Positions 11,054-49,232 of a DNA stretch of 64,000 nucleotides are shown here, piece after piece. Position 1 is the stretch's first letter. Each line of letters begins with the position of its first letter. Origin of the DNA: Diplonema papillatum (lineage: Eukaryota > Euglenozoa > Diplonemea > Diplonemida > Diplonemidae); NCBI GenBank assembly GCA_030068145.1, contig JAPJBO010000828.1, positions 1 through 64,000 of the forward strand, written 5' to 3'. The position numbers and the translations under genes were made by a program. The notes beneath the pieces were generated by a model that was not told where the DNA came from, ran no database searches, and saw nothing but the letters and a program-made list of their open reading frames with translations.

Positions 11054-11296
11054 CCCCTCCCTCGCGCGTTGTGTACGGGGGGCGTGTGTGCGTGGGTGCG
11101 GTTCAGGTGTGGGTGAGTGCGGGTGGTGTGCGTGTATGTTCTTTTTTGTTTTCGTGTGCGTGTGGGACGGTGGTGTGGGGTAGGTGGTGTGTGGCTTGCG
11201 CGTGTGCGAGCTAGGGGTGGACGCAAAGTGCAGGGCTTGCGTCCTGCACCGTGCGCCTCTCTAGCTCGCTTCCTTTGGGTTACCAACTTCTTTGTG

Positions 11297-14562: not shown

Positions 14563-15055
14563 GGGCTTTTTATCTAATAGCCACCTGCTAACTTTTTATT
14601 TAGCTTATAGCCACCTAAAGTAAAACTTTTTAATTAGCTTATAGCACTTTCAAATCTTTTTATTTAGCTTATAGCCACAAAAAACTTTTTATTTAGCTTA
14701 TAGCCACAAAAAACTTTTTATTTAGCTTATAGCCAGGAGGTCCTGAAACTTTTTTTTTAGCTTATAGCCACCTGGTGAAAACTTGGTCGAAAATTTTGGT
14801 CAAAATTTTTTGGTCAAAAAATTGGCCAAAAAATTTGGTCAAAAAAAATGGGTCAAAATTTTTGGTCATAATTTTGGGTCAAAAATTTTTGGTCAAAAAA
14901 AATCGGTCAAAAAAAATCGGTCAAAATTTTTGGCCAAAAAATTTGGTCAAAAAAAATCGGTCAAAATTTTTGGTCAAGACTTTGAGTCAAATTTTTTTGG
15001 TCAAAAAATTTGATCAAAAAAAATCGGTCAAAATTTTTGGTCAAAATTTTTGGTC
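14563..15055. repeat. MULE left terminal/subterminal arrays
   Basis: Six to seven copies of a 25-35-bp unit containing TTTATTTAGCTTATAGCCAC (14569-14771) are followed by about 20 copies of a 10-14-bp GGTCAAAATTTT unit. Such arrays may serve as multiple transposase-binding sites; that role is inferred. Confidence 0.85.
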
Positions 15056-15237
15056 AATTGTTAGCCAATCTGAGAAAAATCACACACGGAATTCGAACCC
15101 AGAAAACCCTTTGCCGTGCTGTGCCAGCTACTGGAGTGGCCACACCTATTTGCACACGTTCATCTTCGCTGCAGGTAGGGGTTTTCGGGCGGTTTGGGCG
15201 CGTTGGAAGGTTCCCAACCCACAAAGCTGTGTCGCAA

Positions 15238-18200: not shown

Positions 18201-18261
18201 CCTCATGAGGAGGATCCCACTCAGCCGTCGGTACACGATAAAGCTGACAGAAGAGAAGTGA
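15238..18261 (+). CDS. MULE transposase fused to OTU-like cysteine protease
   Basis: About 1007 residues from the ATG at 15238; the open frame extends further upstream but only into the terminal repeat array. Order: a helical N-terminus; a Pro/Ala/Thr repeat of 19-21 residues (15480-15860); a WRKY/GCM1-type Cys/His DNA-binding region (FRCKQKQSNGGCCQFKC, about 16010-16140); the MULE DDE domain with VSVDGTFLKG and VVMSDRDKGI; and a SWIM zinc finger (TCSCLESK ... LPCVHVA, about 17251-17310). These are followed by a CCHC knuckle (CLQCGHNRATC, about 17565) and a Lys/Glu linker. The C-terminal 180 residues contain DVERDGNCFYWAL with the catalytic Cys codon at 17797-17799 and a distal EDGHHFSII (about 18155-18181). 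This matches the OTU family Asp-Gly-Asn-Cys and His pattern. The frame is intact, so the element may be recently active. Confidence 0.88.
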   Translation: MSSVGVLDAILQLEKFVSSADDLIPLLTYAAQHDVGNIVVGLQASPTVLVKTLQRIVQQLPPLSCTPSVPGTPSTAQKSPTSVTSAPTVPAPAPDSTAQMPPTSATSAPTVPAPAPDSTAQMPSTSATSAPTVAPAPDSTAQMPSTSATSAPTVAPAPDSTAQMPPTSATSAPTVPAAPDSTAQIPSTSATSAPTVPAPAPDSAASAPSVAPGASASSFPCIGDTYPHNSDFCDAVFRATFAASSTNVCKRMDAKRTLFRCKQKQSNGGCCQFKCNAYKREDGQLRVSQSVAHTCCNLQQTEKTTSRFSAPWLAREVGDLMQTKVDLTPAQIQAFVKSRMGMDITYAVAWDAKEKALDETRLRAAAGFARLRGYFERLAQHDPDCIWDVQTKEVEGEERFRSCFVTFGACRAAMRVALPIVSVDGTFLKGSLKGTLLVAVGKDADGGLFPVAFSLCSGEDEESWTAFFTQLKQAIPFDVVMSDRDKGIIAAASRVIPEKASLSCTEHIKKNVKSHFGAGSCSSVWKASRALTKEQFEEEMLALEKQKKGNVAQYLTNIQGCFSSAFIGTCRFSQFTSNDAESLNAALLPIRESPNVVILFDRLRVYTQELFHTRRGMLANASASSCVPSVGKMLGRLLVEAAPMVVRPAGDGKYEVVLKQQREAVELREDDFTCSCLESKLVTALPCVHVAAAARAEERSILDVVHPRWKILAYRKTYAGIISPLPGLLGIREDSLKPPVFKKSKGRPQKKRHRSHGEDEKVLPDPKKRLVVCSNCLQCGHNRATCKHPAAPRVEKKEKVEKVEKGKKGAGGDNGDKVGPVDRQGDWSTYPMYVREVLEKTKTDAMDVERDGNCFYWALLESEFPFFAAYKSLHLGHAKLRAHLFSQVPPPEIHTRLREQVELGGPTYEAWTAAAKQNKAWADAETLLLAVCIYHVRFVCITLRLSGEKTDFSMTTTEPPQKPAAATVYLLHEDGHHFSIIRGCPPSALMRRIPLSRRYTIKLTEEK
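15480..15860 (+). repeat. In-frame minisatellite in the MULE transposase
   Basis: Six copies of a 57-63-bp unit encode TSATSAPTVPAPAPDSTAQMP-like repeats. Length changes are multiples of three, so the frame is preserved. Confidence 0.88.
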
Positions 18262-19806: not shown

Positions 19807-19860
19807 CAGTGCATGCTAATCCATGTGGTTCATGTACTTAAAAGAACTCAATGCTAAACA
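19807..19860. repeat. 54-bp direct repeat DR1
   Basis: It starts CAGTGCATGCTAATCCATGT and ends ACTCAATGCTAAACA. It is identical to DR2 (23624-23677) and two mismatches from DR3 (31702-31755). The three copies bracket the two copies of the AlkB-family retrotransposon. Each may be a long target duplication, or the 3' end of the element. Confidence 0.9.
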
Positions 19861-22800
19861 TGGCGCAGGGGAGTTTCCGGATCATGAGAAGGCGAAGCAG
19901 CTGCTCACAGCGTTGCGGGAAGAGACGAGTAGGCTCGGAAGGGAAGGATCTGCGGCCAGGTTTACGAAGTACCGAGACAAGCTTAACGAGAGGGCGGACG
20001 CGAGCAGACGATGTCTAGCGACCGTCTGCGCCGGTCGCGCTGAGCCGTCGGGTGTGTTGCGCACCGGAGCGAAGATGACTGCAAATGTGGACGAGATGGA
20101 CGAGGTGTTGCACACTGCGTGGGACGCTATCCTGCGTAAATACAAGGACCGGCCAGAGCCGGAGTACGGACCGTTTCGGGATCGGTTCCAGGAGCACATC
20201 GACACACACTTGATGGAACCCGGGACGATCACGGGGGAGGAGCTGCGGACTCTGCTAAGGAAGAAGCCGAAGAAAAGCGCGTCAGGCGTGGATGGCTGGC
20301 GCATGGCTGAACTGCGGGAGTTGCCGCTTCCCCTGCTGAATGCGCTAGCGGATGTCATGAACCTGGTCGAAGTGACTGGGGTTTGGCCGGCGAGCATGAC
20401 AACTGCCCTGGTGTCGATGGTGCCGAAGGATGAGAGCCAAGACCCGCTGCACACGAGGCCAATAACCGTCACGTCCGCTGTGTACCGCCTATGGGCGTGC
20501 CGCAGGCTTGCGGACATAGTCCTGTGGCAGGAGAAGTGGATCGAAGAAGGACAGAAGGGCTTTCGACCGGGTCACCGTATCGAGGACGTCCTGATGGAGA
20601 TAGGGCTCGAGATGGAGGACGCCTTGCTAGATGGAGAGCCGCTCTACGGAGTGGCGCTGGACTTCCGGAAATGTTTCGACATGGTCCCGCGAGAGATAGT
20701 GCTGCGCCTGGCCGGGGACTTAGGGTTGCACAATCGGGTTCTCAAGCCGCTGAGGGCGATCTACAGACTGCTCGCGAGACGCTTCAAGCTGCCTCTAGGG
20801 GTGGGCAGGGAGTTTAGTGTGACCAATGGTATCCTTCAAGGGTGCCCTGTATCCGTCATCCTCATCAATGCCCTGCTGTCGGTAGTGATGAAGGCGGTCA
20901 AGAAAGAAGCGGAGGGGGTGAGCCCAAAGTCGTACGCGGACGATGCCACGCTGCTATCGCGGCTGTCGGAGGCCGCCCTGCAAAAGGGGGTGGACGTGGT
21001 AGACGAGTTCTGCACGCTCACCGGAATGGAGCTGAACCTCCAGAAAACGGTCGCCTTCTCGACGAGACGTAGGCATCAGTCGACGCTCAGACTCCGCAGC
21101 GTGGATGCGCTGCTGCGGTTTGGCAAATCTGTCACGTGCCTGGGGGCCCTAGTCTCGACGGCGAAGAATAGGACAGAAAGGTCCGACTCGGAGAGGGTGG
21201 AGAAGGCGGCTGCCCTGGCGGAAGGCCTCCGCCATGCGCCGTTCCGGTACGAGAAGCGGGTCCGGATTGTACAGTCGAATGTGCTGCCGGCGGCGCTGTC
21301 AGGCTGCTCTTTCGCGCCGGTGTCGAAGGTGGCAATGAAACGGCTGACGACGTCGGTGATGGGACTGATCTGGGGTGGGTCCAACCCAAAGCGCGCGAGG
21401 GAGATGGTCCTAAATTTTCAGGAGAAGGGCCACCTGACGGACCCCAGTACATGCCTAGCATATAGGGTGACGACGGCGTTCTACGCGGCGTGCGAGAGGT
21501 TGCCACGACTTCTGCCTCTGATGGAGAGCATCCGGGGAAGGTACGCCGAGGAGGACCTACCCCTGGGGCCAGTTGGACTGGCGATGAAGAGCATGGAGGA
21601 GTGTGGACACGTATGGGGACCAGGGCCCCTGTCTCGCACGCTGAGGAATGGTGCAATATTTGACCCGATAGCCTCGACACCCTCGAAGAGGGGGCATGAA
21701 GTGAGGGCGGATTTGAGGGCGAAGACGTGGTCCCGTCTGGTAGCGAGGCGGCCGGGATTTGAGGGTGTACAGAGAGCCGACTTGGAGCGGACGAACTCCT
21801 TCTGGAGGATGCGTGAATGTCCCGCGCACACCGCGAGGCTTATACGTGTAGCGTTGGCGGGAGGAGTGAACACGGCTGAGTTCACGTCGCGGATGAGACA
21901 GGCCGGAGCTGAGCCGCAGGCGCCCAGCTGCAAGCACTGTGGAAGCGGCGACACCGAGGACGAGAAACACGTATTCTGGGACTGCGGAGCGTACTCGCAC
22001 ATACGGCGACGAGAGGCACATGCCGAGCTGATGGCGGCCAACCGCGCCGACTGGCCCAGATGCACGCTGGAACACGGAGTGGTAGTACCCGAGAATGCCC
22101 ACTTCTCGAGGCGGCTCCAGGAGATGATGGCTGAAATCCTTGCGGAGCGGGCAGGGCTCGAAGCACGAGGCTGGGTAGCCAGGAACCCCACGACCCCCTG
22201 GTCGAGAGCGGATGCGATGCCTGCCGAGAAGCTCGACCACCCCTTTGCGCGGATTGCCCCGGCATGGGCGTGGGAGCGGAACAAGGCCTGGGGGCTACCG
22301 ACGTTTTATGCGTTGGTAGCGTGGCTGTCAGACATGGAGTGGACCGAGAACGGGCAGGCGTCAATGCTAGAGCTTGCCATCGACTTTGAACTCTTTTCAG
22401 GCCTCAGCATACCGCTGCACGAGAATGCACCGAAGGGGGTGAGGGAGCGAGGAAACGTCCTGCGCTGCATGATCAGCGCGTTGGACAAGCTGGCGACACA
22501 GCAAGGGCTGGGGAGTTGCGAGCGAGGCGAGAGAGTATGCCCGACGACGTCGCTGTCGTTCATGGGCATCACGGGGATATCGGGGGTGCGGCCCAGGCCC
22601 CGCTTTCGCGAGGCACACACGGGGACGATCCTCGAAGAGCAGGTGAAGGGAAGCGATGTAGGGACGCAGTTCCCGACGTACCCGGACTGGACGGCCGAGA
22701 GAGCGGCGAGGTGGGCCCTGCCTGCCCCACCACAGCTGCACCCCGACCCCGTGCATATGCCGGGTGTCGGAGTAGAGAAGGCGCTCGTCACCTGCGCGAC

Positions 22801-23608
22801 CCACCACAAGGGGAAGTGTGAGGCGTGTCGAGCACTCGTCCGAAGGGACGTGCCCACGGTAGAGATGTGCTGTCGGCACCATCACCACGCTGACGATGGG
22901 CAGCCGATCGCGGTGTGCGTGGAGCACAGCACGACGAAATGCGGCGAGTGCAAGACGGCGGCGGCGTGCTGCCGCAGCGGGCATCATGCCTGCCGCACGC
23001 ATGGCAGAGGAACCTGCCAGGAATGCAGGGGGCTCCCTACGTTGGCGCAGAGGAGACCGGCAGCGTGCTGCCGCCGCGGCCACCACCAACCCAACGAACC
23101 GAACGCCCCGGCAACCCCCGGACACAGCAAAAAGAAGAAGAGACCCCTCTCACCCACCCAGGTGGGCGTACAACGAGAAACACCGGCGGGAAAGCGCGCG
23201 GCGCAGGCACCGCCCGCCGTGGTGAAGCAGAAGACGGCGACGACCGGACGGGCGGCCAAGAGGCCGCCACCAACGCCAGGGACCGGCGAACGACCAGCGT
23301 TGAAGAAGAGGGTGCTCGGCACCCCGAAGGAGAGCCCGATCGCCGGCCGCAAGCGGAAGAAGGCGAAGGCGACCACACCCGAGTCAGGGGTGCAACGAAA
23401 AAAGAAGAAGGCCCTTAAAGCAAGCAGCTACCAGAAACGTCCGACGTCCCCAAGCACTCCGGTGCCCTCGAGAGTGAAAAACGTGCAAGCCTGTCCGCAC
23501 CTGTGCCCCCCCACGCAATCTCCAGAACCGCAAGAAAGCCCAGCGCCCCTGGTGCCACAAGTACTCGACCTTGACGACGCAATGACAGGTGACGACGTCA
23601 TAAAGTAA
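19823..23608 (+). CDS. Reverse transcriptase (truncated retrotransposon ORF2)
   Basis: A 1261-codon open frame whose first ~13 codons lie in DR1. From about residue 18 it parallels the RT part of the full-length copy with scattered substitutions. It holds a KSASGVDGW block, motif A ALDFRKCFDMVP, motif B GILQGCPVSV and the catalytic SYADDATLL. Beyond the thumb is a CKHCGSGDTEDEKHVFWDC motif (C-x2-C...H...C), and further on three Cys/His repeats (CATHHKGKCEAC; CVEHSTTKCGEC; CRTHGRGTCQEC) with CCR(x)GHH segments between. The tail is Lys/Arg-rich and ends in an acidic LDLDDAMTGDDVIK. No stop interrupts it despite the lost 5' half, so insertion was recent. The start at 19823 is simply the first ATG and may not be used. 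Confidence 0.85.
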   Translation: MWFMYLKELNAKHGAGEFPDHEKAKQLLTALREETSRLGREGSAARFTKYRDKLNERADASRRCLATVCAGRAEPSGVLRTGAKMTANVDEMDEVLHTAWDAILRKYKDRPEPEYGPFRDRFQEHIDTHLMEPGTITGEELRTLLRKKPKKSASGVDGWRMAELRELPLPLLNALADVMNLVEVTGVWPASMTTALVSMVPKDESQDPLHTRPITVTSAVYRLWACRRLADIVLWQEKWIEEGQKGFRPGHRIEDVLMEIGLEMEDALLDGEPLYGVALDFRKCFDMVPREIVLRLAGDLGLHNRVLKPLRAIYRLLARRFKLPLGVGREFSVTNGILQGCPVSVILINALLSVVMKAVKKEAEGVSPKSYADDATLLSRLSEAALQKGVDVVDEFCTLTGMELNLQKTVAFSTRRRHQSTLRLRSVDALLRFGKSVTCLGALVSTAKNRTERSDSERVEKAAALAEGLRHAPFRYEKRVRIVQSNVLPAALSGCSFAPVSKVAMKRLTTSVMGLIWGGSNPKRAREMVLNFQEKGHLTDPSTCLAYRVTTAFYAACERLPRLLPLMESIRGRYAEEDLPLGPVGLAMKSMEECGHVWGPGPLSRTLRNGAIFDPIASTPSKRGHEVRADLRAKTWSRLVARRPGFEGVQRADLERTNSFWRMRECPAHTARLIRVALAGGVNTAEFTSRMRQAGAEPQAPSCKHCGSGDTEDEKHVFWDCGAYSHIRRREAHAELMAANRADWPRCTLEHGVVVPENAHFSRRLQEMMAEILAERAGLEARGWVARNPTTPWSRADAMPAEKLDHPFARIAPAWAWERNKAWGLPTFYALVAWLSDMEWTENGQASMLELAIDFELFSGLSIPLHENAPKGVRERGNVLRCMISALDKLATQQGLGSCERGERVCPTTSLSFMGITGISGVRPRPRFREAHTGTILEEQVKGSDVGTQFPTYPDWTAERAARWALPAPPQLHPDPVHMPGVGVEKALVTCATHHKGKCEACRALVRRDVPTVEMCCRHHHHADDGQPIAVCVEHSTTKCGECKTAAACCRSGHHACRTHGRGTCQECRGLPTLAQRRPAACCRRGHHQPNEPNAPATPGHSKKKKRPLSPTQVGVQRETPAGKRAAQAPPAVVKQKTATTGRAAKRPPPTPGTGERPALKKRVLGTPKESPIAGRKRKKAKATTPESGVQRKKKKALKASSYQKRPTSPSTPVPSRVKNVQACPHLCPPTQSPEPQESPAPLVPQVLDLDDAMTGDDVIK

Positions 23609-23677
23609 CCTTAAGCGGCGACACAGTGCATGCTAATCCATGTGGTTCATGTACTTAAAAGAACTCAATGCTAAACA
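19861..23677 (+). mobile_element. 5'-truncated copy of the AlkB-type non-LTR retrotransposon
   Basis: Nucleotide sequence matching the full-length copy begins just after DR1, at a point corresponding to residue ~732 of the full-length second product, and continues to the shared 3' end. ORF1, the AlkB domain, the 2A motif and the endonuclease are all absent. 5' truncation is typical of target-primed reverse transcription. Confidence 0.88.
23624..23677. repeat. 54-bp direct repeat DR2
   Basis: Identical to DR1. The similarity with DR3 continues for another ~20 bp (AACATAACGTGGGCGGC), which DR1 lacks. Confidence 0.9.
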
Positions 23678-23848
23678 AACATAACGTGGGCGGCACCAAC
23701 GATTTAAAAGCTACAGTTTCTGTACTTTATTGGCTGCTCACGCGGCCGGTAAAGTGCGCCCGGAATTCATCCAGGACAAACACCCTCCATAACACAACAG
23801 CGGTACCCATCCGCGAAAAGAACGCGGGCTACCCGTACCTCCGTCAAA

Positions 23849-25708
23849 ATGGACAGGATTAACGCCCTGATCCAGGAAGCGCGCGGGATGGCGGAACGCG
23901 CCAACCGCGACCAGCTGGATGCCGTTTTCGGCATCCTCGACGTCGCCACGACGCTGCTCCGGCGTCAGATCGAGGCGAACAGCGGGGAGCCGGCGCAACA
24001 ACGGCCGCCACTGCAGCAACAGCAGCAACCGAAGCAGCAGCAGCAGCAACCGAGGCAGCAGCAGCAGCCGAGGCAGCAGCGGCAGCAACCGAAGCAGCAG
24101 CAACCGCAGCAGCAACCGCAACCGCAACAGCAGCAGCAACAGCAACGGCAAACGCAGCAGCGCCGCCCGCAGGGGCAGCAACAACCGCAACCGCAACAGC
24201 AACAGCAACAGCAAACGCAGCAGCGCCGCCCGCAGGAGCAGCAACAACCACAACAGCGGCCCCGGCAGGGGTACGCGCCCACCTGGGCAGAAGTGACCAG
24301 GCGGCCCCCGCCACCCGGTAAAATCGACGCCGCCGACTGGGACGCGCCGGTACTCCCCTCCCCCGACTTCGAAGCTGTCGAAGCTGGCCTCTGGGTCGCC
24401 CCGAGCGCCGCCGCAGCCGAAGAAGCGAAGGGTCCCGCAGCAGATGCGGTGGACGTCGCAGAGCGCGACGGGAAGCGGGTGCGCCTCGGCGTGCTGTGCC
24501 GGGAGGCCTTCGACGACGCACGCCGGGGCCCAGTGCTGCTGGAAGGCGGGCGGGTACAGGATATGTACCTGTGGGCGGGCGGCGGGCCGGTATGCCAGCG
24601 GGGCCAGGTGAAGGTCCAGAAGATGCCCGTCAGCGCGGTGAAGCCGAACGCCGCGACGACGGTACTGGCCTTCGTCGTGGCCAGGAAGCACGCCTCGCCG
24701 GAGACCTGGGAGTGCGTCGAGAGGGACCCGCGCACGGCCCTGACTCGCCTGTGCCGGAGGGCTGTCAAGACGGCCCTGAAGACGGAGGTCCGCGTCCCCG
24801 ACGACGCCATGTGGGGCGTGTCGTCGCAGCAGGGGAGGCGCGAGCTGGTCGTGCGGGTGCCCCGCGCGCAGGCCGAAGCGATCCTGGCCAGCTCCGGCCG
24901 GGACGGCGGATTCTGGCGGTCGACGGAGAAGGCCTGCCGGGACGCCATGCCGGTGGTCGCCCTGCAAAAGGGGGTCACGAGGGCGGTCGCGCTGGCGGTA
25001 GCTGAGCGGGCAGGCGCGGCGGCAGCCGGTCTCGTGCTCACGGGCAGCCGCCTCCTCGTGCGCGCACGCAGCGGCGCTGTGCTGGAGGAGGTGCGTGCGG
25101 CGGCCGCCGAACACGCTGCTGCCCCCCTCGAGTCGAAGCCGCGCTTCCTCGTGGTGGGTGCGACGCCGCGGGAGCACGAGGCGGACGTCGAGTACGTCCT
25201 GCGGGAGGCCGGCTGGCAGGTCGACGTCGCCACGTCGTTCCTGCGAAGTGGGGCCCGGGTTTGCGTGGTGACGTCGGCGGCCGACCCTCCCTTCAGGGTG
25301 CTGCAGCGGGAGGGGGCACCCGACCTCCGGGTAAACCCGTACGACGGAGGTGAGCTGCCGAGGGAGCGGCGCAGGCGGCTCGCTGCCGCCCCCAGCGGGA
25401 AGCGGCGGATGCGGCTGCCGGCGGCGGAGGTGGACGAGCTACCGCAGCCGGCGGCCCCGCCAGCGGACGCGGCCGGACAGAAGAAGAGGAAGACGCCGGA
25501 GCCGGCAGCGGACGGGCCGGAACCCGCTGGGGACGATGTCCCAATGGACGGTGCAGAGGCGGGCGGGCACGTCCACGCCTTCGGGAGCCCGGCGAAGGCC
25601 ACCGCCGGTTTCTCCTGCGCCCTATGCGGGAAGAAGAAGGCGAAGGGCCAGATCCGCACGACATGCGAGGGCTGCAACGTCGGCGCGTGCAAGGCGTGTG
25701 CGGGTTGA
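23849..25708 (+). CDS. Retrotransposon ORF1 (polyQ, C-terminal zinc ribbon)
   Basis: 619 residues from ATG 23849 to UGA 25706-25708. The N-terminus is a short amphipathic helix region. Residues ~50-135 are almost pure Gln/Pro/Arg. Between ~230 and 510 there are globular segments with alternating hydrophobic strands (RRELVVRVPRAQAEAIL; KPRFLVVGATPREHEADVEY) that could be RRM-like folds, unproven. The C-terminus has three CxxC pairs (CALCGKKK, CEGC, CKAC) forming a likely zinc ribbon. It probably binds the element RNA, as LINE ORF1 products do. The UGA is followed by CUG and the same frame continues open into the AlkB domain. Confidence 0.85.
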   Translation: MDRINALIQEARGMAERANRDQLDAVFGILDVATTLLRRQIEANSGEPAQQRPPLQQQQQPKQQQQQPRQQQQPRQQRQQPKQQQPQQQPQPQQQQQQQRQTQQRRPQGQQQPQPQQQQQQQTQQRRPQEQQQPQQRPRQGYAPTWAEVTRRPPPPGKIDAADWDAPVLPSPDFEAVEAGLWVAPSAAAAEEAKGPAADAVDVAERDGKRVRLGVLCREAFDDARRGPVLLEGGRVQDMYLWAGGGPVCQRGQVKVQKMPVSAVKPNAATTVLAFVVARKHASPETWECVERDPRTALTRLCRRAVKTALKTEVRVPDDAMWGVSSQQGRRELVVRVPRAQAEAILASSGRDGGFWRSTEKACRDAMPVVALQKGVTRAVALAVAERAGAAAAGLVLTGSRLLVRARSGAVLEEVRAAAAEHAAAPLESKPRFLVVGATPREHEADVEYVLREAGWQVDVATSFLRSGARVCVVTSAADPPFRVLQREGAPDLRVNPYDGGELPRERRRRLAAAPSGKRRMRLPAAEVDELPQPAAPPADAAGQKKRKTPEPAADGPEPAGDDVPMDGAEAGGHVHAFGSPAKATAGFSCALCGKKKAKGQIRTTCEGCNVGACKACAG

Positions 25709-28700
25709 CTGCCACCGCGACCCGTCCCCGGCGCCAGTTGTGGCCCCGCCAGGCCGGTGCAGGCCGCCCAGCGCGTGAGTCCCAGCACGCAGTTCGACGA
25801 TGGAGCAGGCGAAGGTGGTGGCGATCCCTCTTCTTCTTCTTCTTCTTTTTGCCCCCCTCTCTCCCACAATGCGCCAGGCCTCATTAGCCCGGGAAATTTA
25901 CCCGCAGCGCACAAACAATCCCCCCACAAAGGCCAGCGTGCCTGCGGGGGGGGCCCTGTCAGGGTGGAGGGAGCAATCCCCGGACTAAGCTTCCAGACGA
26001 TCCCTCGGGATCTTCTGGACAGACTGAGCCGAGTACCCGAGCTTGGGCCGAAAGCCACTTGGAGGAGGCTGGGGGGAGAACAAAGCAGAGAGACCCAGCA
26101 GTGGGGACACGCCTACCGACAGGGCGGACCCCCGGTCAGACTGGAACGGGGTATCCCCGAGGGGCCCCTGAAAGAAGCGGCGGATCTCATACGTGACCGT
26201 CTCGGGTGGGAACCGGACCAGTTGCTGGCCAACTGGTACCGGAGGGGAGTGGGGATCAACCCCCACAAAGACCAGAGAGAACTGGGTCCGAGGGTAGCGA
26301 CCGTATCGCTCTTGAGCGACACGGTCATGGAGTGGGAGAGGGGGAGCCGGAGAGTGAGAACCCCCCTGCCGGTCGGCACACTGTGCCACATGGAAGGCGA
26401 GGCCAGGAGCCTGTGGACACACGGGATTCGTCCCGATGATGTCGCACGCGACCGGGTCTCGCTCACCTACAGGGCCGTGCGCGAGGCCGCCTCCCAACGT
26501 TTGCAAGGCCGGGACACCCCGCAAGAAACTCCCCCCATGCCCCCCCCGCCCCGCCCTCAGGCGTCCTCCCCACCCCCCCAGCAACAGTTCAGCCCCGCGC
26601 CACGTACTGACTTGTGTAATCGCCAAAGAACTCTTATATCTATTAAGGAAACTACTAGACAGCAGCTGTTAAGCGCTGGAGACATCGAACAGAACCCGGG
26701 CCCCGGCCGCACGGAGATGAAGTTCGCGACGTTGAACGTAACTAGCTTACTTCAATATCTCCCAGCGGCCGACGCGGTGGAAGCGGATCTTCTCTGCTGC
26801 CAGGAGGTGACACTCCTTCCGTGCAAACGGGCGCAGGCGGAGGAATACCTGCGGAAATGGTGCTGCCACTGGGGCCTGCCGCCTCCCGGAAGACTCTGTA
26901 GAAACTCCGGTAGTCGCTCGACGGTGAACGCCGCGAACGGGGGGCTCTCCACTCTAGTACTGAGACCGATACCTGCGTACGATACGATGACGGCGCTCTC
27001 GCACGCAGCAATACGGTCCCCGGACCGAGTGAGCCATACGGTAGTAGCAACAGGGGCCGGCAACACGTTCGTGCACGTGTTCAATGTCTACTGCCCTTCC
27101 GGAAACGGGAGGGCGGAGAGCGAGGAGCGTGAGGACATGCTGGAGAAGATCCTCTTCGCAGCGGCAGATAGCCTCGGTGACGTCCCCATAATGGTGATGG
27201 GTGACCTGAACACGGAAGAAGACCGGTCCCCTGTGCTGCGGAAGGCACTAAGGAACGGATGGTCCGACGCAGCGGAACTGCACCATGCGCGTACCGGTGA
27301 CACACCGCCACCACCGACCTTTACCAGCGCCCGGACGACAGGCACGAGGATCGACCGCATACTCCTCAACCGAATAACGACGGGAGCTTTCCGTCAATGC
27401 GTCACCACCGCGGTGAACGTACCGGGACACCGGCTCGTGACAATGACCCTGGACATTGCGGCGCTGCGCCAAATCGTGTGGCGATTTAAAGTACCGCGGG
27501 AAATCCCTACCGAGGGGGGACCCAAGTGGGGCCTCTCGGACACAGAAGCTAACAGGGAAGCCGTACAGAGACTGACCAACTCCGATTTCGCAGAACGGCT
27601 GGCAGCACAGCGAGTGGAAGAGGCCTGGCTCGAGTGGTCACGAGTCAGTGAGCAGTACTTGCAGGATGCCTTCGGAATCCCTGCGGAAGAAAGGGGAAGG
27701 AGTACCGGCCGGGGGATAAAGACGTCGCCTAAGAGAGTCTGTATCACGGCAAGCACTGCGAGCGACGGGTCGGGGGCGGCGAACAGCAGACAGCTACGGC
27801 TCCGGAAGGCCATCCACAGGATGGAACGCATCTGCAGCTACCTTGCGCAGCGACGCGGGCCGGAGGCAGTTCCGCATGAAGTATCCCGTTGCTGGCAGAA
27901 CAGCAGACGGCTGGCACAGGCGTGCATGAAAGGTGGCCAAGGGACAGAAGGATTCCCGGATCATGAGGAGGCGAAGCAGCTTCTCACGGCATTGCGGGAA
28001 GAGACGAGTAGGCTCGGAAGGGAAGGATCGGCGGCCAGGTTTACGAAGTACCGAGACAAGCTGAACGAGAGGGCCGATGCGAGCAGACGATGTCTGACAA
28101 CCATCTGCGCCGGACGCGCTGAGCCGTCGGGGGTGTTGCGAACGGGGGCGGGAGTGACTGCAAATGTTGACGAGATGGACGAGGCGCTGAACACTGCGTG
28201 GGACCCTATCCTGCGTAAGTACAAGGACGGGCCAGAGCCGGAGTACGAGCCGTTTCGGGATCGGTTCCAGGATCACATCGGCCCACACTTGATGGAAGCC
28301 GGAACAATCACGGGGGAGGAGCTGCGAATTCTGCTGAGGAAGAAGCCGAAGAAAAGCGCGTCAGGGGTGGATGGCTGGCGCATGGCTGAACTGCGGGAGT
28401 TGCCGCTCCCCCTGCTGAATGCACTTGCAGACGTCATGAACCTGGTCGAAGCGACTGGGGACTGGCCGGCAAGCATGACAACTGCGCTGGTGTCGATGGT
28501 GCCGAAAGATGAGAGCCAAGACCCGCTGCACACGAGGCCGATAACCGTCACGTCCGCCGTGTACCGCTTGTGGGCCTGCCGCAGGCTTGCGGACATTGTC
28601 CTGTGGCAGGAGGGGTGGATCGAAGAAGGACAGAAAGGCTTTCGGCCGGGCCACCGGATCGAGGACGTCTTGATGGAGATAGGGCTCGAGGTGGAGGACG

Positions 28701-31687
28701 CCTTGCTGGACGGAGAGCCGCTCTACGGAGTGGCGCTGGACTTCCGGAAGTGTTTCGACATGGTCCCGCGAGAGGTAGTGCTACGCCTGGCTGAGGACTT
28801 AGGACTGCACGGTCGGGTTCTCAAGCCGCTGAGGGCGATTTACAGTCTGCTCGCAAGACGCTTCAAGTTGCCGCTAGGGGTGGGCAGGGAGTTTAGTGTG
28901 ACCAACGGTATCCTTCAAGGGTGCCCTGTGTCCGTCATACTCATCAATGCCCTGCTGTCGGTAGTGATGAAAGCGGTCAAAAAAGAAGCTGAGGGTGTGA
29001 GTCCTAAGTCGTACGCGGATGATGCCACACTACTGTCCAGGCTGTCGGAGGCCGCACTGCAAAAGGGAGTCGACATTGTTGACGAGTTCTGCACACTCAC
29101 CGGAATGCAGCTAAACCTCGAGAAGACCATCGCATTCTCGACGAGGCAGAGGCACCAGTCGACGCTCAGACTCCGAAGCGGAAATGCGCTGCTGCGATTT
29201 AGCAAGTCCGTCACGTGTCTGGGGGCCCTAGTCTCAACGGCGAAGAACAGAAAGGAGAGGTCCGACTCTAAGAGGGTAGAGAGGGCGGCGGCCCTAGCGG
29301 AGGGCCTCCGCCACGCGCCATTCCGGTACGAAAAGCGGGTCCGTATTGTGCAGTCGAATGTGTTGCCGGCAGCGCTATCGGGCTGCTCCTTCGCGCCGGT
29401 GTCAAAGGTGGCGATGAAGCGGTTGACGACGTCGGTGATGGGTCTGATCTGGGGTGGAGCAAACCCGAAGCGCGCGAGAGAAATGGTCCTGAACTTCCAG
29501 GAGAAGGGCCACCTGACGGACCCCGGTACGTGTTTAGCGTACCGGGTGACGACGGCGTTCTACGCGGCGTGCGAGAGGCTGCCGCGACTGCTACCTCTGA
29601 TGGAGAGTATCCGGGGGCGGTACGCCGAGGGGGACCAACCCCTCGGCCCAGTCGGGCTGGCGATGAGGAGCATGGAGGAGTGTGGACACATATGGGAGCC
29701 TGGGCCCCTATCTCGCACGCTACGACGGAATGGTGCAGTGTTCGACCCGCTGGCCTCGTCGCCCTCGAAGAGGGGGCACGAAGTGAGGGCGGACCTGAGA
29801 ACGAGGACGTGGGCCCGACTGATGGCGAGAAGGCCAGGATATCAGGGGCTGGAAAGAGCCGACTTGGAGCGCACGAATGCGTTCTGGAAGACGAGGGAAT
29901 GTTCCGCGCACACGGCGAAGCTAATTCGAGTTGCGATTGCGGGGGGTGTGAACACGGCGGAGTTCACGTCGCGGATGAGGCAGGCTGGAGCTGAGCCGCA
30001 GGCGCCCAGCTGCAAGCACTGTGGGAGCGGCGTGACGGAGAACGAACAGCATATCTACTGGGACTGCGACGCATACTCACACATTCGCCGGCGGGAAGCA
30101 CACGCCGGGCTGATGGCGGCCAACCGAACCGAGTGGCCCCGATGCACGCTGGAACATGGTGTGGTTGTACCGGGGAACGCCCACTTATCGAGGCGGCTCC
30201 AGGAGATGATGGCTGAAATCCTTGCGGAACGTGCAGGGCTCGAAGCACGTGGCTGGGTAGCCAGGAACCCCACGACCCCCTGGTCGAGAGCGGATGCGAT
30301 GCCTGCCGAGAAATTTGACCACCCCTTTGCGCGGATTGCCCCGGCATGGACGTGGGAGCGAAACAAGACCTGGGGACTACCGACGTTTTATGCGTTGGTA
30401 GCGTGGCTGTCTGACATGCAGTGGACCGAGAGCGGGCAGGCGTCAATGCTAGAGCTTGCGATCGACTTTGAACTCTTCTCGGGCCTCAGCATGCCGCTGC
30501 ACGGGAATGCGCCGAAGGGGGTGAGAGAACGGGGAAACGTCCTGCGCTGCATGATGAGCGCGTTGGACAAGCTGGCGGCACAGCAAGGGCTGGGAAGCTG
30601 CATGAGAGGGGAGAGGGTGTGCCCGACGACGTCGCTGTCGTTCATGGGCATCTCGGGGATATCGGGTGTACGGCCCAGGCCACGCTTTCGCGAGGCACAC
30701 ACGGGGACGATACTTGAGGAACAAGTGAAAGGAAGCGATGTAGGGACGCAGTGCCCGGCGTACCCTGACTGGACGATCGGGAGAGCGGCGAGGTGGGCCC
30801 TGCCTGCCCCACCACAACTGCACCCAGACCCCGTGCATATGCCGGGTGTCGATATAGAGAAGGCACTCGTCACGTGCGCGACCCATCACAAAGGGAAGTG
30901 TGAGGCGTGCAGAGCACTCGTCCGAAGGGACGTGCCCACGGTAGAGATGTGCTGCCGGCACCATCACCACGCGAACGATGGGCAGCCGATCGCGGTGTGC
31001 GCAGAGCACAGCACGACGAAGTGCGGCGAGTGCAAGACGGCGGCGGCGTGTTGCCGCAGCGGGCATCATGCCTGCCGCACGCATGGCAGAGGAACCTGCC
31101 AAGAGTGCAAGAGGCTCCCTACGCTGACGCAGAGGCGACCGGCGGCATGTTGCCGCCGCGGCCACCACCAGTCCAACGAACCGAACGTCCCGTCAACCCC
31201 CGGACGCAACAAGAAGAAGAGGCCCTCCTCACCCACCCAGGTGGGCGTACAACGGGGAACGCCAGTTGGAAAGCGAGCGGCGCAAGCGCCGCCCGCGGCA
31301 ACGAAAAAGGAGACGGCGACGACCGGACGGGCGACCAAGAGGCCGCCACCAACGCCAGGAACCAGCGAACGACCAGCGCTGAAGAAAAGGGTGCTAGGCA
31401 CCCCGAAGGAAGGCCCGATCGCCGGCCGCAAGCGGAAGAAGACGAAGGCGACCACCCCCGACTCAGGGGTGCATCGAAGGAAGAAGAAGGTACCGAGGGC
31501 AAGCAGCTCTCAGAAACGACCGGGGACCACGGGCACACCAATGCCCTCGAAAGTGAAAAACGGGCACACGTGCCCGCCCTCGTACTCGCCGACTCAGTCT
31601 CTGGAATCGCAAGAAAGCCAAACCCCGCTAGCTCCACAAATGCTCGACCTTGACGACGCAATGGCAGGTGACGACGTCATCCGATAA
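25709..31687 (+). CDS. AlkB-like dioxygenase / 2A / APE endonuclease / reverse transcriptase polyprotein
   Basis: Open directly after the ORF1 UGA in the same frame. The numbering here counts the GTG at 25757 as residue 1; the first in-frame ATG is only codon 191. Residues ~80-240 match the AlkB-type 2OG-Fe(II) dioxygenase pattern: NWYRRGVGINPHKD (H170, D172), VATVSLLSD, SLWTHGIR (H222) and the RVSLTYR box (R233, R239). GDIEQNPGP (308-316) is a canonical 2A motif that would release the upstream part. APE endonuclease: LNVTSL (N327), CQE (E350), NVYCP, MGDLN (482-485), RIDRIL (D533), PGHRL (H558). RT: 862 to ~1110 with ALDFRKCFD, GILQGCPVS and YADD (1086-1089). Then a C-x2-C...H...C motif, a triple Cys/His repeat, a basic tail and an acidic end. 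Confidence 0.88.
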   Translation: MPPRPVPGASCGPARPVQAAQRVSPSTQFDDGAGEGGGDPSSSSSSFCPPLSHNAPGLISPGNLPAAHKQSPHKGQRACGGGPVRVEGAIPGLSFQTIPRDLLDRLSRVPELGPKATWRRLGGEQSRETQQWGHAYRQGGPPVRLERGIPEGPLKEAADLIRDRLGWEPDQLLANWYRRGVGINPHKDQRELGPRVATVSLLSDTVMEWERGSRRVRTPLPVGTLCHMEGEARSLWTHGIRPDDVARDRVSLTYRAVREAASQRLQGRDTPQETPPMPPPPRPQASSPPPQQQFSPAPRTDLCNRQRTLISIKETTRQQLLSAGDIEQNPGPGRTEMKFATLNVTSLLQYLPAADAVEADLLCCQEVTLLPCKRAQAEEYLRKWCCHWGLPPPGRLCRNSGSRSTVNAANGGLSTLVLRPIPAYDTMTALSHAAIRSPDRVSHTVVATGAGNTFVHVFNVYCPSGNGRAESEEREDMLEKILFAAADSLGDVPIMVMGDLNTEEDRSPVLRKALRNGWSDAAELHHARTGDTPPPPTFTSARTTGTRIDRILLNRITTGAFRQCVTTAVNVPGHRLVTMTLDIAALRQIVWRFKVPREIPTEGGPKWGLSDTEANREAVQRLTNSDFAERLAAQRVEEAWLEWSRVSEQYLQDAFGIPAEERGRSTGRGIKTSPKRVCITASTASDGSGAANSRQLRLRKAIHRMERICSYLAQRRGPEAVPHEVSRCWQNSRRLAQACMKGGQGTEGFPDHEEAKQLLTALREETSRLGREGSAARFTKYRDKLNERADASRRCLTTICAGRAEPSGVLRTGAGVTANVDEMDEALNTAWDPILRKYKDGPEPEYEPFRDRFQDHIGPHLMEAGTITGEELRILLRKKPKKSASGVDGWRMAELRELPLPLLNALADVMNLVEATGDWPASMTTALVSMVPKDESQDPLHTRPITVTSAVYRLWACRRLADIVLWQEGWIEEGQKGFRPGHRIEDVLMEIGLEVEDALLDGEPLYGVALDFRKCFDMVPREVVLRLAEDLGLHGRVLKPLRAIYSLLARRFKLPLGVGREFSVTNGILQGCPVSVILINALLSVVMKAVKKEAEGVSPKSYADDATLLSRLSEAALQKGVDIVDEFCTLTGMQLNLEKTIAFSTRQRHQSTLRLRSGNALLRFSKSVTCLGALVSTAKNRKERSDSKRVERAAALAEGLRHAPFRYEKRVRIVQSNVLPAALSGCSFAPVSKVAMKRLTTSVMGLIWGGANPKRAREMVLNFQEKGHLTDPGTCLAYRVTTAFYAACERLPRLLPLMESIRGRYAEGDQPLGPVGLAMRSMEECGHIWEPGPLSRTLRRNGAVFDPLASSPSKRGHEVRADLRTRTWARLMARRPGYQGLERADLERTNAFWKTRECSAHTAKLIRVAIAGGVNTAEFTSRMRQAGAEPQAPSCKHCGSGVTENEQHIYWDCDAYSHIRRREAHAGLMAANRTEWPRCTLEHGVVVPGNAHLSRRLQEMMAEILAERAGLEARGWVARNPTTPWSRADAMPAEKFDHPFARIAPAWTWERNKTWGLPTFYALVAWLSDMQWTESGQASMLELAIDFELFSGLSMPLHGNAPKGVRERGNVLRCMMSALDKLAAQQGLGSCMRGERVCPTTSLSFMGISGISGVRPRPRFREAHTGTILEEQVKGSDVGTQCPAYPDWTIGRAARWALPAPPQLHPDPVHMPGVDIEKALVTCATHHKGKCEACRALVRRDVPTVEMCCRHHHHANDGQPIAVCAEHSTTKCGECKTAAACCRSGHHACRTHGRGTCQECKRLPTLTQRRPAACCRRGHHQSNEPNVPSTPGRNKKKRPSSPTQVGVQRGTPVGKRAAQAPPAATKKETATTGRATKRPPPTPGTSERPALKKRVLGTPKEGPIAGRKRKKTKATTPDSGVHRRKKKVPRASSSQKRPGTTGTPMPSKVKNGHTCPPSYSPTQSLESQESQTPLAPQMLDLDDAMAGDDVIR
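25994..26476 (+). other. AlkB-like 2OG-Fe(II) dioxygenase domain
   Basis: About 160 residues carrying HxD, the distal His and the RxxxxxR box in the order and spacing of AlkB proteins, which oxidatively demethylate alkylated nucleic acids. All metal- and 2OG-binding residues appear intact. There is no ATG upstream within this domain's frame after ORF1, so it depends on readthrough or non-AUG initiation. Confidence 0.82.
26678..26704 (+). other. 2A ribosome-skipping motif
   Basis: It encodes GDIEQNPGP, which fits the D-(V/I)-E-x-N-P-G-P consensus exactly and is preceded by a Leu/Ala-rich stretch (QQLLSA). Skipping between the last Gly and Pro would separate the AlkB moiety from the endonuclease-RT. 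Functional 2A sequences are known in other non-LTR retrotransposons, such as trypanosome L1Tc. Confidence 0.9.
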
Positions 31688-31701
31688 CCTGACTTTCAAG
31701 G

Positions 31702-31755
31702 CAGTGCATGTTAATCCACGTGGTTCATGTACTTAAAAGAACTCAATGCTAAACA
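31702..31755. repeat. 54-bp direct repeat DR3
   Basis: Two mismatches to DR1/DR2 (GTTAATCCACG in place of GCTAATCCATG). Confidence 0.9.
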
Positions 31756-34464
31756 AACATAACGTGGGCGGCGCCGAAGCTTTACCAGCTTCGGCTGACA
31801 CCATTTGCGCACTTAACCATGGTTAAGAAGACAACTGAAAGCATAGACACAAAGATAGCCCAAAGCATCTGCAGAATAACACGAAAAGCCTCTAGGCAAA
31901 AACCCGTTTTCACATTTCTTCTGAAGGCGCCCCATTGTTGATTTCGTCCCCTGGCACGACACTGCTGCAGCAACAGGACTTTCGACCACTCCTTCGTGCA
32001 GTCGAATCGGAGCGAATCGATACGAGCAGGCCTTCTCGTTTCCTCTTTCTGCCAGCCACCAGGTCAGCTTCCTCCTGCTTGGACTTGTTCCACAACAGTC
32101 TTTCTCGACCTAGACACACTGACAATCAGATTCGGCAACGGTGGAACCGAAGGCAACTCTCCTTCTTTGCAGCAGACCTTTGTCGACTGTTCTCGTCCCG
32201 CACGTTTGGATGAGTAGCGATTTGGAGGACCTTCTTCATCTTCCCGCGCATCCCTTCCAAAACAGACGGTCCAAGTGCCAGATTTCTCGTCACACTTGCT
32301 ACCTCCTCATCGGCGGGCAGTACTGCACAGGCTCGTAGTAACTTCCGGCGGCAACCCGATGAACGACGCTCCGGAGACAGTCAACATCTGACGCCGGGTA
32401 TTAGAAGGGTTCACTCGTAGTAACGCGTGCAGGGCAGTGTGGCTCCTGCGCCAGCCGCACCAGGCCGCGCCAGAAAACCCTGTATGGCGCGTTTGGCGCG
32501 ATTGGCGCGCCCTTAGTGTTTTCACCAGGAATTGACAACTTCTTCACTTTGGGATCATAGTTCGTCCATTTTCTCGGCGATCCCGGCGTGCGTTCCGACA
32601 AGTTTTTGGTCCGGAAAACCTGTTCTCAGAGGGTGTCAACCTATTCTGGTGCCTTCCCACACCCCCTGTCCTTCCAGAGCCAGTGAAAACCAACACTTTT
32701 TCCAGGGGATCGATCCCTGCAAGCAGCCTTTTCGGACCGGTTTTGACGGGTGCAATGCGGGTGTAATGTACCCTGCGGCAATGAAATGCCGACGAACCAC
32801 AATAATCCGCCTACATTTCCGGGTCTATTTGGCACCGTTCTCTTCATCCGAGCAAAGAGCGAGCAAATAGTCGTCGGAAAATATTTTCTACGTAGACCAG
32901 CGGGAAAATATCACCACACCCCAAAGCCAGAGTCCACTGTTTGTGCCCATTGGAAAATAACCCAGACTGGGTATCACTTCCGCCGAGGCACACTTTTGCC
33001 CACGTGGGAACCTAAATATCCTTGGGGCTACAGGGTGCCAAACGCGCCGCGCCGCGCCACGCCAAACGCGCCACCACACTGTGCGGGGGAAGGGAGGCGA
33101 TTCGTAGTCCACCTGTTACGGGAAACCTTTGACATTTGAGTCAAAAAGAAACGCAAAAATGTCCAGAAAATGGGTTTGGCACCTCAAATAAAACTTCAAA
33201 GTATCATGTGGTGGTGTTTGAGTGTGGGCAAAATTTTCGGGTTCTGGGCCAAAAAGTTGCTAAGTACACAAAATGTTTTTTTTTCAGAAATCCCACTGTA
33301 CCATGGCAGTCTACCCGACGATTACTGGCTGTTACTGGCAGTTACTGGCAGCGCAGACCTGTCAAACGCACCAATTAAATATTCTTTTTCAAATTCCCCA
33401 ATATTTATAAATTAAAAACTACATAAATTAGGAGCCAGACGGTATCTACGCTTGCACGGCAAGTACTGGACAGGACGAATCCCAGCTGGGACAGCTGCAC
33501 CGTCGATCGGCGTGCGACGACACCCCCTCAGGTGGACCGCACCTCGCGCCTCAGGCATCAGCCTGCCCCCCCCGCATGCTTTGCTACCCGAGTCCCGGCG
33601 AGCAGTGGCAGGGCGCTCTCCAGCCAAACGAGTTGAACAGAAACAAATGACTGATCCTGTTTGGTGGAGATCCGCTCCTGCCGGGGCTTTGCTCGGGATT
33701 AGCTGAAGTAAACACCGTGTCCAAGATGCCACCCAAAGGCCGCCCAAAGCAGGCCCATGCAGGTCTTTTCGAAGAACTGGGCGTTCAATCGGTCGGAGGC
33801 AACTTCTGATTGCACTGTGTCCTTGCGACAGGTGGTGGAGAAGGGAGCAAGCTGGCTTGGATGTCCATGTATGACAGACAAACCCGTTTCGTCGGGCTTA
33901 CGCGAGTCGGGAATTTGGTGTATCGTATCGTTTTTTTCCGGCTCGCTACGCGAGCTGAAAAATCAAGTGTTGCAATCGGAACACTGGGGAGATTATAAAG
34001 ACCATTAGTTAGAGTGTAAGAGACAAAGATACCGCAGTACACCGGCAGATCCTGCTGTAGCTTACCACCGCGACACTGAAGATGTTAAGGCCGGAGAGAA
34101 GGCGAAGACATGCAGCACTGGCAGGTGAGCCCCCCTATGCTTTATTTCTTTTTGCCCGGGGCCTCTATGTACTGATTTTCAGTAGGTATTCAGCTCCAAG
34201 ACAAAAGAGCTGCGTAAGCCCTGCCCAAGGGACAAAAAGGGGTTTATATTGTCCGGTAAAAAAATACCATTACTCGCCTGGCTGTATTGAAAGAGCTGAG
34301 GCAGAGAATCTCGATAAACCATCAAGAGAAGAGTAAACGCTGTACTCAATTGTACCCACGAAACGCATCTAGCCACTAATTCATCGAGCAGGTTGACGAA
34401 CACCACAAGAATAAGGAAGGAAAGACAGGAGTAATATTGGGAAAGGCGAACGCGACTTTGCACC
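31756..34464. other. Intergenic stretch upstream of the NUBPL-like gene
   Basis: No convincing gene. It includes GGCGCG/CGCGCC-rich segments in inverted orientation (about 32440-32515 and 33030-33080), the GTTACTGGC block (33298-33385), and one arm of a ~110-bp inverted pair (33592-33711) whose partner lies in intron 1 (37199-37326). Promoter and 5' leader of the downstream gene are presumably between 34.0 and 34.46 kb, but I see no defining motif. Confidence 0.55.
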
Positions 34465-34938
34465 ATGAACACGCAAATGCAGAAGCTTGGCATGGTCGGT
34501 GTGAAGCACTTGCTTGCGATATCGTCGTGCAAGGGAGGCGTGGGAAAGAGTACCACTGCAGTGAACCTGGCGCTTGCCTTCAAAAACCTGGGAAAGTCAA
34601 CGGGGCTTCTTGACATGGATCTACAAGGACCCAGTGTACCGCGCATGCTGAACTTGCACCGATTGGAGAGCGTGAAGGCGACTCGGGAAGGCAAGTTTCT
34701 CCCACCGCAGAACTACGGGATCAAGGCTATGAGCCTAGGGTTGCTGCTAGCTGATGATCAGTCGATGGTAGCCCGAGGACCTATGCTGTCTCAACAGGTC
34801 AACGCACTGCTGCAGCAAGTGGACTGGGGCAACTTAGATATTCTCTGTCTCGATATGCCTCCAGGCACACATGACGTGCATCTCACCATCAGTCAGCAGC
34901 TCTCGCTAGATGGTGCAGTTATTGTCACTACCCCACAG
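34465..34938 (+). CDS. NUBPL: NUBPL/Ind1-type P-loop ATPase, exon 1
   Basis: Encodes the first 158 residues of a Mrp/NBP35-family ATPase that best fits the NUBPL/Ind1 branch, the mitochondrial factor that inserts Fe-S clusters into respiratory complex I. Visible: the deviant Walker A CKGGVGKSTT (residues ~23-32), LLDMDLQGPSVPRML, a W-containing QQVDWGNLDILCLDMPPGTHDV (Walker B/switch) and VIVTTPQ at the exon end. The donor is CAG|GTTGGC at 34938/34939, phase 0. The ATG context (CACCATGA) is good and an in-frame TAA at 34432-34434 closes the frame upstream. No mitochondrial presequence is visible, so targeting could need an unseen upstream exon or be absent. Across three exons the protein is about 280 residues, close to the mature length of the family. 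Confidence 0.9.
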
Positions 34939-35311
34939 GTTGGCTTGTTATTCTGTCTCACGTCCTTTTCACCCTATCTTGAGCAAGTTCAAAGCGCGGA
35001 CCATATCGTTCTACGATAATAGGATAGGTCCAATGGTTTCGGAGATAACTACATGGTGTTAGGACCACCCTTAGCGAGTCTAGAGGCAACCTGTTGCTCA
35101 GTCCGGTGTTTTGTGCAACCCGAACCTTTTTTCCTAGGCGCTTGGGCAAACCCGAACCTTTTTACCCAGGCCTTACGTTCAGCATGCTGAACGTACTCTT
35201 TTCAGCGCGTTAATGTTTTTAGTTTTTTTGTACACATGCTTTAGCAGGGGTTTATACGGGGCTTCGAAAAAATCCTGAGTTCCGGTCTGGGCGTGTTTTT
35301 TTTTTTTTTTT

Positions 35312-42808: not shown

Positions 42809-43065
42809 GGAAAAGGTCGCGTTGGCAGAAACGGTGAAGATGATAATTGTCACAGGGTTGGTGAAATGAAAGCGAGAATGTGGGGTAAGCCCTGGTTATT
42901 AGATTCACGGTTAAACGAAGCTAGCGCACAAGGTTTGCCTGATCTCGCACCTACTTTCCGATACCAAATAGATGCTCTATTCAAACTCGGAAAAGGTCGC
43001 GTTGGCAGAAACGGTGAAGATGATAATTGTCACAGGGTTGGTGAAATGAAAGCGAGAATGTGGAA
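42809..43065. repeat. Terminal repeat blocks of DIRS copy 1
   Basis: Block 1 (GGAAAAGGTCGCG...), block 2 (GGGTAAGCCC...CAAACTC) and block 1 again. The second block 1 leads into the 3' end of the RT gene region. Confidence 0.85.
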
Positions 43066-43182
43066 TAAAAATCCCTGGACGTGAAACTCAAAAACCCAAA
43101 GAGCTGAGATCCCGCTGCCTCCGGGTCTCGCAAAGAATAGCGCTATCAGGAGCGTAAAAACAAAACTTCCGAGGTAAAGATC

Positions 43183-44871: not shown

Positions 44872-44921
44872 GGGGTGTTTCTGTCGCGTCGGGAAACGGC
44901 TGTCAAAGAGAGGCGGGTTGG

Positions 44922-45923: not shown

Positions 45924-45974
45924 GGTCTTCGGCCTGGGGGGACCAAATCCCAGCCGACTGTTCCACGCCCAACT

Positions 45975-46748: not shown

Positions 46749-46797
46749 TGGGAAGAGGGGGTGTGAGTTGTGTATGGAATAAAAGAGAATGGAAATA

Positions 46798-47384: not shown

Positions 47385-47493
47385 AAAAATCCCTGGACGT
47401 GAAACTTAAAGAGCTGAGATCCCGCTGCCTCCGGGTCTCGCAAAGAATAGCGCTATCAGGAGCGTAAAAACAAAACTTCCGAGGTAAAGATCC

Positions 47494-49182: not shown

Positions 49183-49232
49183 GGGGTGTTTCTGTCGCGT
49201 CGGGAAACGGCTGTCAAAGAGAGGCGGGTTGG

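Follow-up and report, generated by a model that had tools for sequence, protein, structure and literature searches.

An AlkB-type dioxygenase domain inside an APE-type LINE of Diplonema papillatum and its possible role in RNA demethylation

Trypanosomatid LINEs such as L1Tc bear a 2A motif at the N-side of the APE endonuclease-reverse transcriptase (EN-RT), and the LINE described below, also a euglenozoan one, resembles them in this respect. To our knowledge, no AlkB domain is present in elements of the L1Tc type. The solved sequences closest to the AlkB domain of the present element are those of ALKBH8, ALKBH6 and Ofd2, which differ from it in being host enzymes.

Capture of an AlkB-family domain by a retrotransposon is described for the orchid Phalaenopsis, in which AlkB of Ty3/gypsy (Ogre/Tat) elements demethylates m6A in single-stranded RNA in vitro (PMC9289625). 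Among the literature matches listed, this is the sole case of AlkB in a retrotransposon. The orchid elements are LTR elements of a plant, with AlkB of the ALKBH5 clade encoded in a separate ORF, whereas the Diplonema element is a non-LTR element of a diplonemid, and its ALKBH8/6-like domain is located ahead of 2A-EN-RT. The AlkB domains of Alphaflexi-, Betaflexi- and Closteroviridae, which act on RNA in vitro (PMC9289625), also reside in RNA-based selfish elements, but these are RNA viruses with neither reverse transcription nor 2A-EN-RT. In Symbiodinium, the elements SymbioLINE-Dnmt and SymbioDIRS-Dnmt3 (PMC5890265) represent a nucleic-acid-modifying enzyme placed upstream of the RT ORF in a LINE. 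Their cytosine methyltransferase writes marks, while AlkB enzymes remove or oxidise them; AlkB does not occur in the available text of that paper. The available text of PMC11294593 concerns host alkB2 only.

An earlier note on the DNA analysed here did not know AlkB as a standard LINE module. This agrees with the open-licence literature, where no AlkB domain in a LINE was found by title or start of abstract among the matches listed. Its presence in a LINE would extend a known theme, the capture of modification enzymes by retrotransposons. The DNA surveyed is a stretch of 64,000 nt (the window) of the marine flagellate Diplonema papillatum (GCA_030068145.1, contig JAPJBO010000828.1).

The LINE and its neighbouring copy

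With a spliced leader as its 5′ end and a 17-nt repeat on either side, the element (Table 1) looks complete. The repeat string occurs only twice within the window, at 23678 and 31756, both times on the plus strand. A flanking repeat that could be the target-site duplication of an APE-type LINE is thus present, as is an adjoining 5′-truncated sibling. In part the repeat may be 3′-end sequence; the right copy could alternatively be 3′-end sequence of the element, common with the upstream copy.

A published table of leaders includes a row ‘Euglenozoa 14’, which we take to be the diplonemid leader. The 38-nt string at the 5′ end of the element is identical to positions 2-39 of the 39-nt leader in this row (PMC3795323), and 39 nt is the length given for spliced leaders of D. 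papillatum (PMC10161547). The ORF1 5′ UTR lies directly 3′ of the string. Given these 38 of 39 leader nucleotides, the most likely source of the LINE copy is a trans-spliced mRNA with both ORFs. Near-complete spliced leaders at LINE 5′ ends are also possible markers of full-length LINE insertions in the D. papillatum genome.

ORF1 gave no Pfam match above its cut-off. It is followed by the open frame 25709-31687 (plus strand, 1992 codons), in which AlkB (PF13532), a 2A-like motif, an APE endonuclease (PF03372) and a reverse transcriptase (PF00078) are arranged in this order. In a single phmmer run, the whole frame matched LINE-1 ORF2p at 1.9e-19 and ALKBH8 at 1.2e-5. The element is assigned to APE-type LINEs because the APE endonuclease precedes RT in one ORF and LINE-1 ORF2p is matched. 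The consensus of 2A motifs is D(V/I)ExNPGP, with which DIEQNPGP agrees. The motifs QE, GDLN, RIDR and GHR are presumably those of the APE endonuclease. No Pfam match was obtained for the C-terminal Cys/His region, whether searched with the whole ORF or with 30728-31108.

Table 1. Features of the LINE and of the adjacent copy (positions of the window)
Feature	Positions	Strand	Remarks
5′-truncated copy, sister subfamily	19870..23677	+	88% nt identity
Putative target-site duplication, left copy	23678..23694		17-nt string AACATAACGTGGGCGGC, just before leader
APE-type LINE, apparently full-length, 8061 bp	23695..31755	+	spliced-leader 5′ end, inferred 3′ end, 3′ UTR common with adjacent copy, flanking 17-nt repeat
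Spliced-leader exon, euglenozoan	23695..23732	+	38/39 nt; string unique within window
ORF1, 619 aa	23849..25708	+	Q-rich N-terminal part, C-terminal Cys cluster; ATG 23849 to TGA 25706-25708
Linker, ORF1 stop to AlkB	25709..25966	+	open in frame; no codon-usage signal
Two polypyrimidine runs, candidate internal trans-splice acceptor	25825..25865	+	26 nt (25825-25850) and 14 nt (25852-25865)
AlkB-type 2OG-Fe(II) dioxygenase	25967..26491	+	HxD 26264-26272, distal His in WTHG 26414-26425, R-x5-R 26453-26473
2A-like ribosome-skipping motif DIEQNPGP	26681..26704	+	between AlkB and endonuclease
APE-type endonuclease	26732..27439	+	PF03372 1.4e-8, match 26732-27373; QE, GDLN, RIDR, GHR motifs, last at 27419-27439
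Reverse transcriptase, YADD	28526..29140	+	PF00078 (RVT_1) 1.1e-18; LINE-1 ORF2p 1.9e-19
C-terminal Cys/His clusters	30011..31168	+	CKHCGSG at 30011; CATHHKGKCEAC...CCRRGHH at 30875-31168
Putative target-site duplication, right copy	31756..31772		AACATAACGTGGGCGGC, just after inferred 3′ end

The LINE copies stand head-to-tail (19807-23694 and 31756-31772), with a common 3′ tail and an identical 17-nt flank. The 5′-truncated sister copy stops right before the left 17-nt repeat and is itself preceded by a 54-nt 3′-tail piece. Such a pattern would fit repeated use of a single nick site by the head-to-tail copies. Within the adjacent copy, no match to ORF1, AlkB or the endonuclease was found. The element and this copy have 1244 codons of RT and C-terminal sequence in common, a region that takes in neither AlkB nor the endonuclease. 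Here dS is 0.405 and dN 0.056 (ratio 0.14); this shared part is therefore under purifying selection.

The AlkB domain and its relatives

The presence of an AlkB domain inside this non-LTR retrotransposon is supported by sequence matches, by a second AlkB type in which the domain is conserved at 77% identity and, weakly, by a structure model. The motifs which the earlier note had read in AlkB order, ahead of a 2A motif and an APE endonuclease-RT in one frame, are all present within 26261-26704 (PHKD 26261-26272, WTHG 26414-26425 and RVSLTYR 26453-26473), with PF03372 and RVT_1 matched behind them (Table 1). The domain that it had placed at 25994..26476 is there, but these bounds are to be replaced by the slightly longer ones given by homology, approximately 25967-26491.

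A profile search, which had been proposed as a check, bore the assignment out. The 195-aa piece 25949-26533 alone matched PF13532 at E 2.2e-13 (51.3 bits, cut-off 31.2), while its decoys (one reversed, one shuffled) matched nothing in Pfam at E ≤ 1. With the NCBIfam AlkB model, which was built for the bacterial enzyme, there is hardly a match (E 0.091). In a phmmer search of the same piece against PDB, 32 sequences were obtained at E ≤ 10. The best was ALKBH8 (4.1e-7), followed by ALKBH6 (1.3e-5), whose match extends over the N-terminal part of the piece too, and fission-yeast Ofd2 (listed as P8A3.02c, 1.4e-5). Structures of these closest relatives, human ALKBH8 and ALKBH6 and fission-yeast Ofd2, are available (3thp, 7vjs, 5yl6). 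ALKBH3 (0.0076), DNA 6mA demethylase (0.11), and ALKBH2 and AlkB (0.5 or worse) matched more weakly. No ALKBH5 chain was among the 32 sequences; an ALKBH5-like m6A eraser by descent is unsupported, as ALKBH8, ALKBH6 and Ofd2 appear nearest by search. A single chance motif match is rejected, since the profile, PDB and decoy tests agree.

The structure model was produced for the AlkB piece by AlphaFold2 from a five-row alignment and is poor (mean pLDDT 49.9, pTM 0.50). Foldseek comparison of this low-confidence model with PDB placed ABH8, AlkB and ABH2 on top, with a best E of 4.6e-3 and none at or below 1e-3, so the model lends weak support to AlkB, a family with a double-stranded beta-helix fold.

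Relatives were collected by three protein searches, whose reach was restricted to proteins of certain lengths and with words in common. These returned 12, 3 and 1 matches, the set of 3 being contained in the set of 12, that is, 13 distinct proteins, of which 12 belong to D. papillatum. Of the 12 relatives of the first 600 residues of the ORF, 11 are D. papillatum proteins; P0002, P0004, P0005 and P0007 are 90-98% identical over the matched part, and the others 55-71%. In two of these clusters, P0002 (23 member sequences) and P0004 (73), the annotation starts only at the endonuclease. Searches of phage proteins and viral contigs (AlkB and EN-RT queries) and of genome contigs (AlkB alignment) gave no result; these collections are viral or prokaryotic, may omit D. 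papillatum and say little on eukaryotes.

Four AlkB-bearing relatives were found (P0007, P0008, P0013 and P0015), all of D. papillatum. The AlkB part of P0007 is 98% identical to that of the element, and the remainder of P0007 is without a match in the window. The AlkB of P0008 is 77% identical and represents a second AlkB type in the same genome; its local alignment with the element ends at the domain edges. Conservation confined in this way to the domain suggests selection on AlkB. Residues H186, D188 and H238, presumably the iron ligands, and R249 and R255, presumably the 2OG ligands expected for AlkB (open-frame numbering), are invariant in all five aligned sequences, the window's and the four relatives. 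Two observations that the earlier note would have counted against the domain were destroyed HxD/H residues in other copies and copies devoid of AlkB. All four relatives retain the ligands, and the one copy seen without the domain, the adjacent one, is 5′-truncated.

P0008, P0013 and P0015 are near-identical through AlkB and then split at one common point. Their further pieces resemble another LINE on the minus strand of the window, and P0008 also has an OTU match (E 5.2e-4) under the cut-off. Because they diverge at a single point, these fusions with OTU or minus-strand-LINE pieces may be gene-model artefacts. An AlkB module in a second LINE class (AlkB-OTU-RT, P0008) was considered and not accepted, since the common divergence point suggests that splicing in the gene models runs from one nested repeat into another.

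Expression and possible function of the domain

The earlier note had called the coding region a polyprotein, a term that the sequence does not bear out. The first in-frame ATG of 25709-31687 is residue 207, inside the AlkB domain and after HxD, and the separate ORF1 upstream has its own ATG and terminates at the TGA before the frame. Without an ATG for the domain, AlkB may be off in the window's copy. P0015 starts with Met two residues ahead of the alignable domain, where the element reads AGG (alignment extended by two residues).

The codon-usage score per codon is +0.036 in the AlkB frame, -0.184 and -0.22 in the other two frames of AlkB, and -0.269 in frame in the linker. By chance alone, a frame like that of the linker stays open in 40% of order-1 Markov sequences. 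The runs in the linker are the only sense-strand pyrimidine runs of at least 13 nt in the element (antisense: six, at most 18 nt), and the next AG after them is at 25876-25877. Within the window as a whole, pyrimidine runs of at least 20 nt are not rare, with 12 of them on the plus strand and 2 on the minus strand. A pyrimidine tract in a trans-splicing organism suggests a second leader-addition site, which would yield a separate AlkB-2A-EN-RT mRNA. Alternatively, translation may begin at GUG or proceed by read-through, or the AlkB start of the window's copy may be inactive. UGA read-through, which concerns the expression route only, would produce AlkB as a C-terminal extension of ORF1 and tether the enzyme to the RNP, with EN-RT freed by 2A. 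It could draw on the common frame of ORF1 and AlkB, parted by a single TGA, and on the presence of both ORFs in the retrotransposed mRNA. We regard it as improbable: as the main route to AlkB it is weakened by the linker, which has no codon signal and may well be open by chance, the pyrimidine tracts point to trans-splicing instead, and the P0015 gene model begins with Met near the domain boundary.

The reading to which we give the most weight, at a probability of roughly 45%, is that an apparently complete APE-type LINE acquired an ALKBH8/ALKBH6-like AlkB domain as an RNA demethylase for the LINE's own transcript. The earlier note had suggested demethylation of element RNA or cDNA, or action against silencing by host RNA methylation, which is plausible. 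The full transcript would gain the spliced leader and serve as template for reverse transcription. AlkB-2A-EN-RT would be translated from element RNA, for which the ORF1-AlkB pyrimidine tract probably serves as a second trans-splicing site, and the 2A motif would part AlkB from the endonuclease-reverse transcriptase. AlkB could then strip base methylation from element RNA, leading to less host methylation-based control and fewer modification-caused RT stops. The DNA itself displays the domain homology, the intact ligands, the order of the parts and a leader-led element with a flanking repeat, while internal trans-splicing, 2A skipping, the enzyme activity of AlkB, its RNA substrate and the benefit to the element are what we infer here.

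RNA demethylation is the leading idea because RNA is what the AlkB domains of RNA viruses and of the orchid Ty3/gypsy elements work on in vitro. It is favoured by the significant AlkB match, intact ligands, negative decoys, a codon signal of AlkB in its own frame only, the top Foldseek matches of the poor model (ABH8, AlkB, ABH2), the leader at the 5′ end of the element and the 77% conservation of the domain. The structure title of ALKBH8, the nearest solved relative, names an RNA-binding enzyme of tRNA hypermodification. Against it count the missing ATG for AlkB in the window's copy, the frequency of long pyrimidine runs in the window, and the low pLDDT of a model with no Foldseek match at 1e-3. 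Moreover, in mammals m6A helps L1 and the m6A eraser ALKBH5 suppresses it (PMC7873242), the opposite of the benefit proposed. Neither m6A nor 6mA occurs in the main text, as available, of the D. papillatum genome paper (PMC10161547).

A DNA-directed enzyme, which would repair or demethylate cDNA or target DNA at insertion or clear host DNA marks from new copies, is unlikely. The nearest sequences are ALKBH8, ALKBH6 and Ofd2, the DNA 6mA demethylase, ALKBH2, AlkB and also ALKBH3 matching far less well (values above), and AlkB enzymes do not usually act on 5mC. The poor model does have E. coli AlkB and ABH2, both of DNA repair, among its fold matches; homologs of DNA methyltransferases and genes for base J are present in D. 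papillatum (PMC10161547), and some LINEs elsewhere carry DNA methyltransferases (PMC5890265). Rather unlikely, too, is that the domain is a passenger, an exon of the host that the element captured and transduced and whose expression was lost in this LINE's subfamily. The absence of an ATG in the window's copy and the non-coding-like linker would suit such an origin, as would the finding of only four AlkB-bearing protein clusters, although protein length and shared words restricted the searches. A passenger would hardly be expected to keep its ligands in five of five sequences, to exist as two types 77% identical with edges at the domain, or to run in an unbroken frame into 2A-EN-RT with its codon signal in frame.

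Action in trans in the manner of ALKBH8, with AlkB modifying host tRNA wobble bases or other host RNA and so tuning translation toward the element, seems quite improbable. Among solved sequences, ALKBH8 matches the window's domain best, and P0008 and P0015 are annotated as tRNA carboxymethyluridine methyltransferase. ALKBH8 structure titles, however, name an RRM, and ALKBH8 also carries a methyltransferase; Pfam searches of P0001 and P0015 gave neither an RRM nor a methyltransferase, and P0015 scores better with ALKBH6 (6e-9) than with ALKBH8 (1.8e-8).

A broader form of the RNA-demethylase reading is also quite doubtful. According to it, diplonemid LINEs would keep an epitranscriptomic AlkB module, with the enzyme made from a subgenomic mRNA that bears a spliced leader and set free by 2A. 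AlkB would clear base methylation from element RNA, including the modified leader cap region, so that RT could reach the very 5′ end; the module might also have passed to a second LINE type of the same genome, one that carries OTU. That AlkB might clear the spliced-leader cap region for RT is our own suggestion. The 38 of 39 leader nucleotides held by the window's copy are cited for RT reaching the 5′ end.

An AlkB LINE in a spliced-leader euglenozoan makes the editing of own-RNA methylation by retrotransposons directly testable in a free-living protist, and gene replacement has been achieved in D. papillatum (PMC10161547). The ‘dozen’ AlkB-type genes of its genome were interpreted in terms of host gene regulation (PMC10161547). 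Part of them may be mobile-element sequence, since the annotated P0007, P0008, P0013 and P0015 carry the element-type AlkB domain.

Several other features are present in the window. Another LINE-like element (4604-11260, minus strand) has overlapping frames, a CCCH zinc finger (PF18044, 2e-7), the 2A-like motif GCVEANPGP, a weak RT match (E 0.074) and, by eye, an RLE-like C-terminal part. Two copies at 42891-46947 and 47209-51258, 99.4% identical over 4058 columns and adjoined by low-complexity tracts, are presumably DIRS-like; a minus-strand ORF of the first (43183-46230) matches RVT_1 at 1.8e-9, and no recombinase was found in the copies by Pfam. A MULE transposase (PF10551, 3e-17) is encoded in a frame of 1091 aa at 14986-18261 (plus strand). 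Probable host genes are represented by a NUBPL-type P-loop NTPase (34435-35019, plus strand; PF10609, 2.2e-56) and a fatty acid desaturase (60290-61591, plus strand; PF00487, 1.8e-13).
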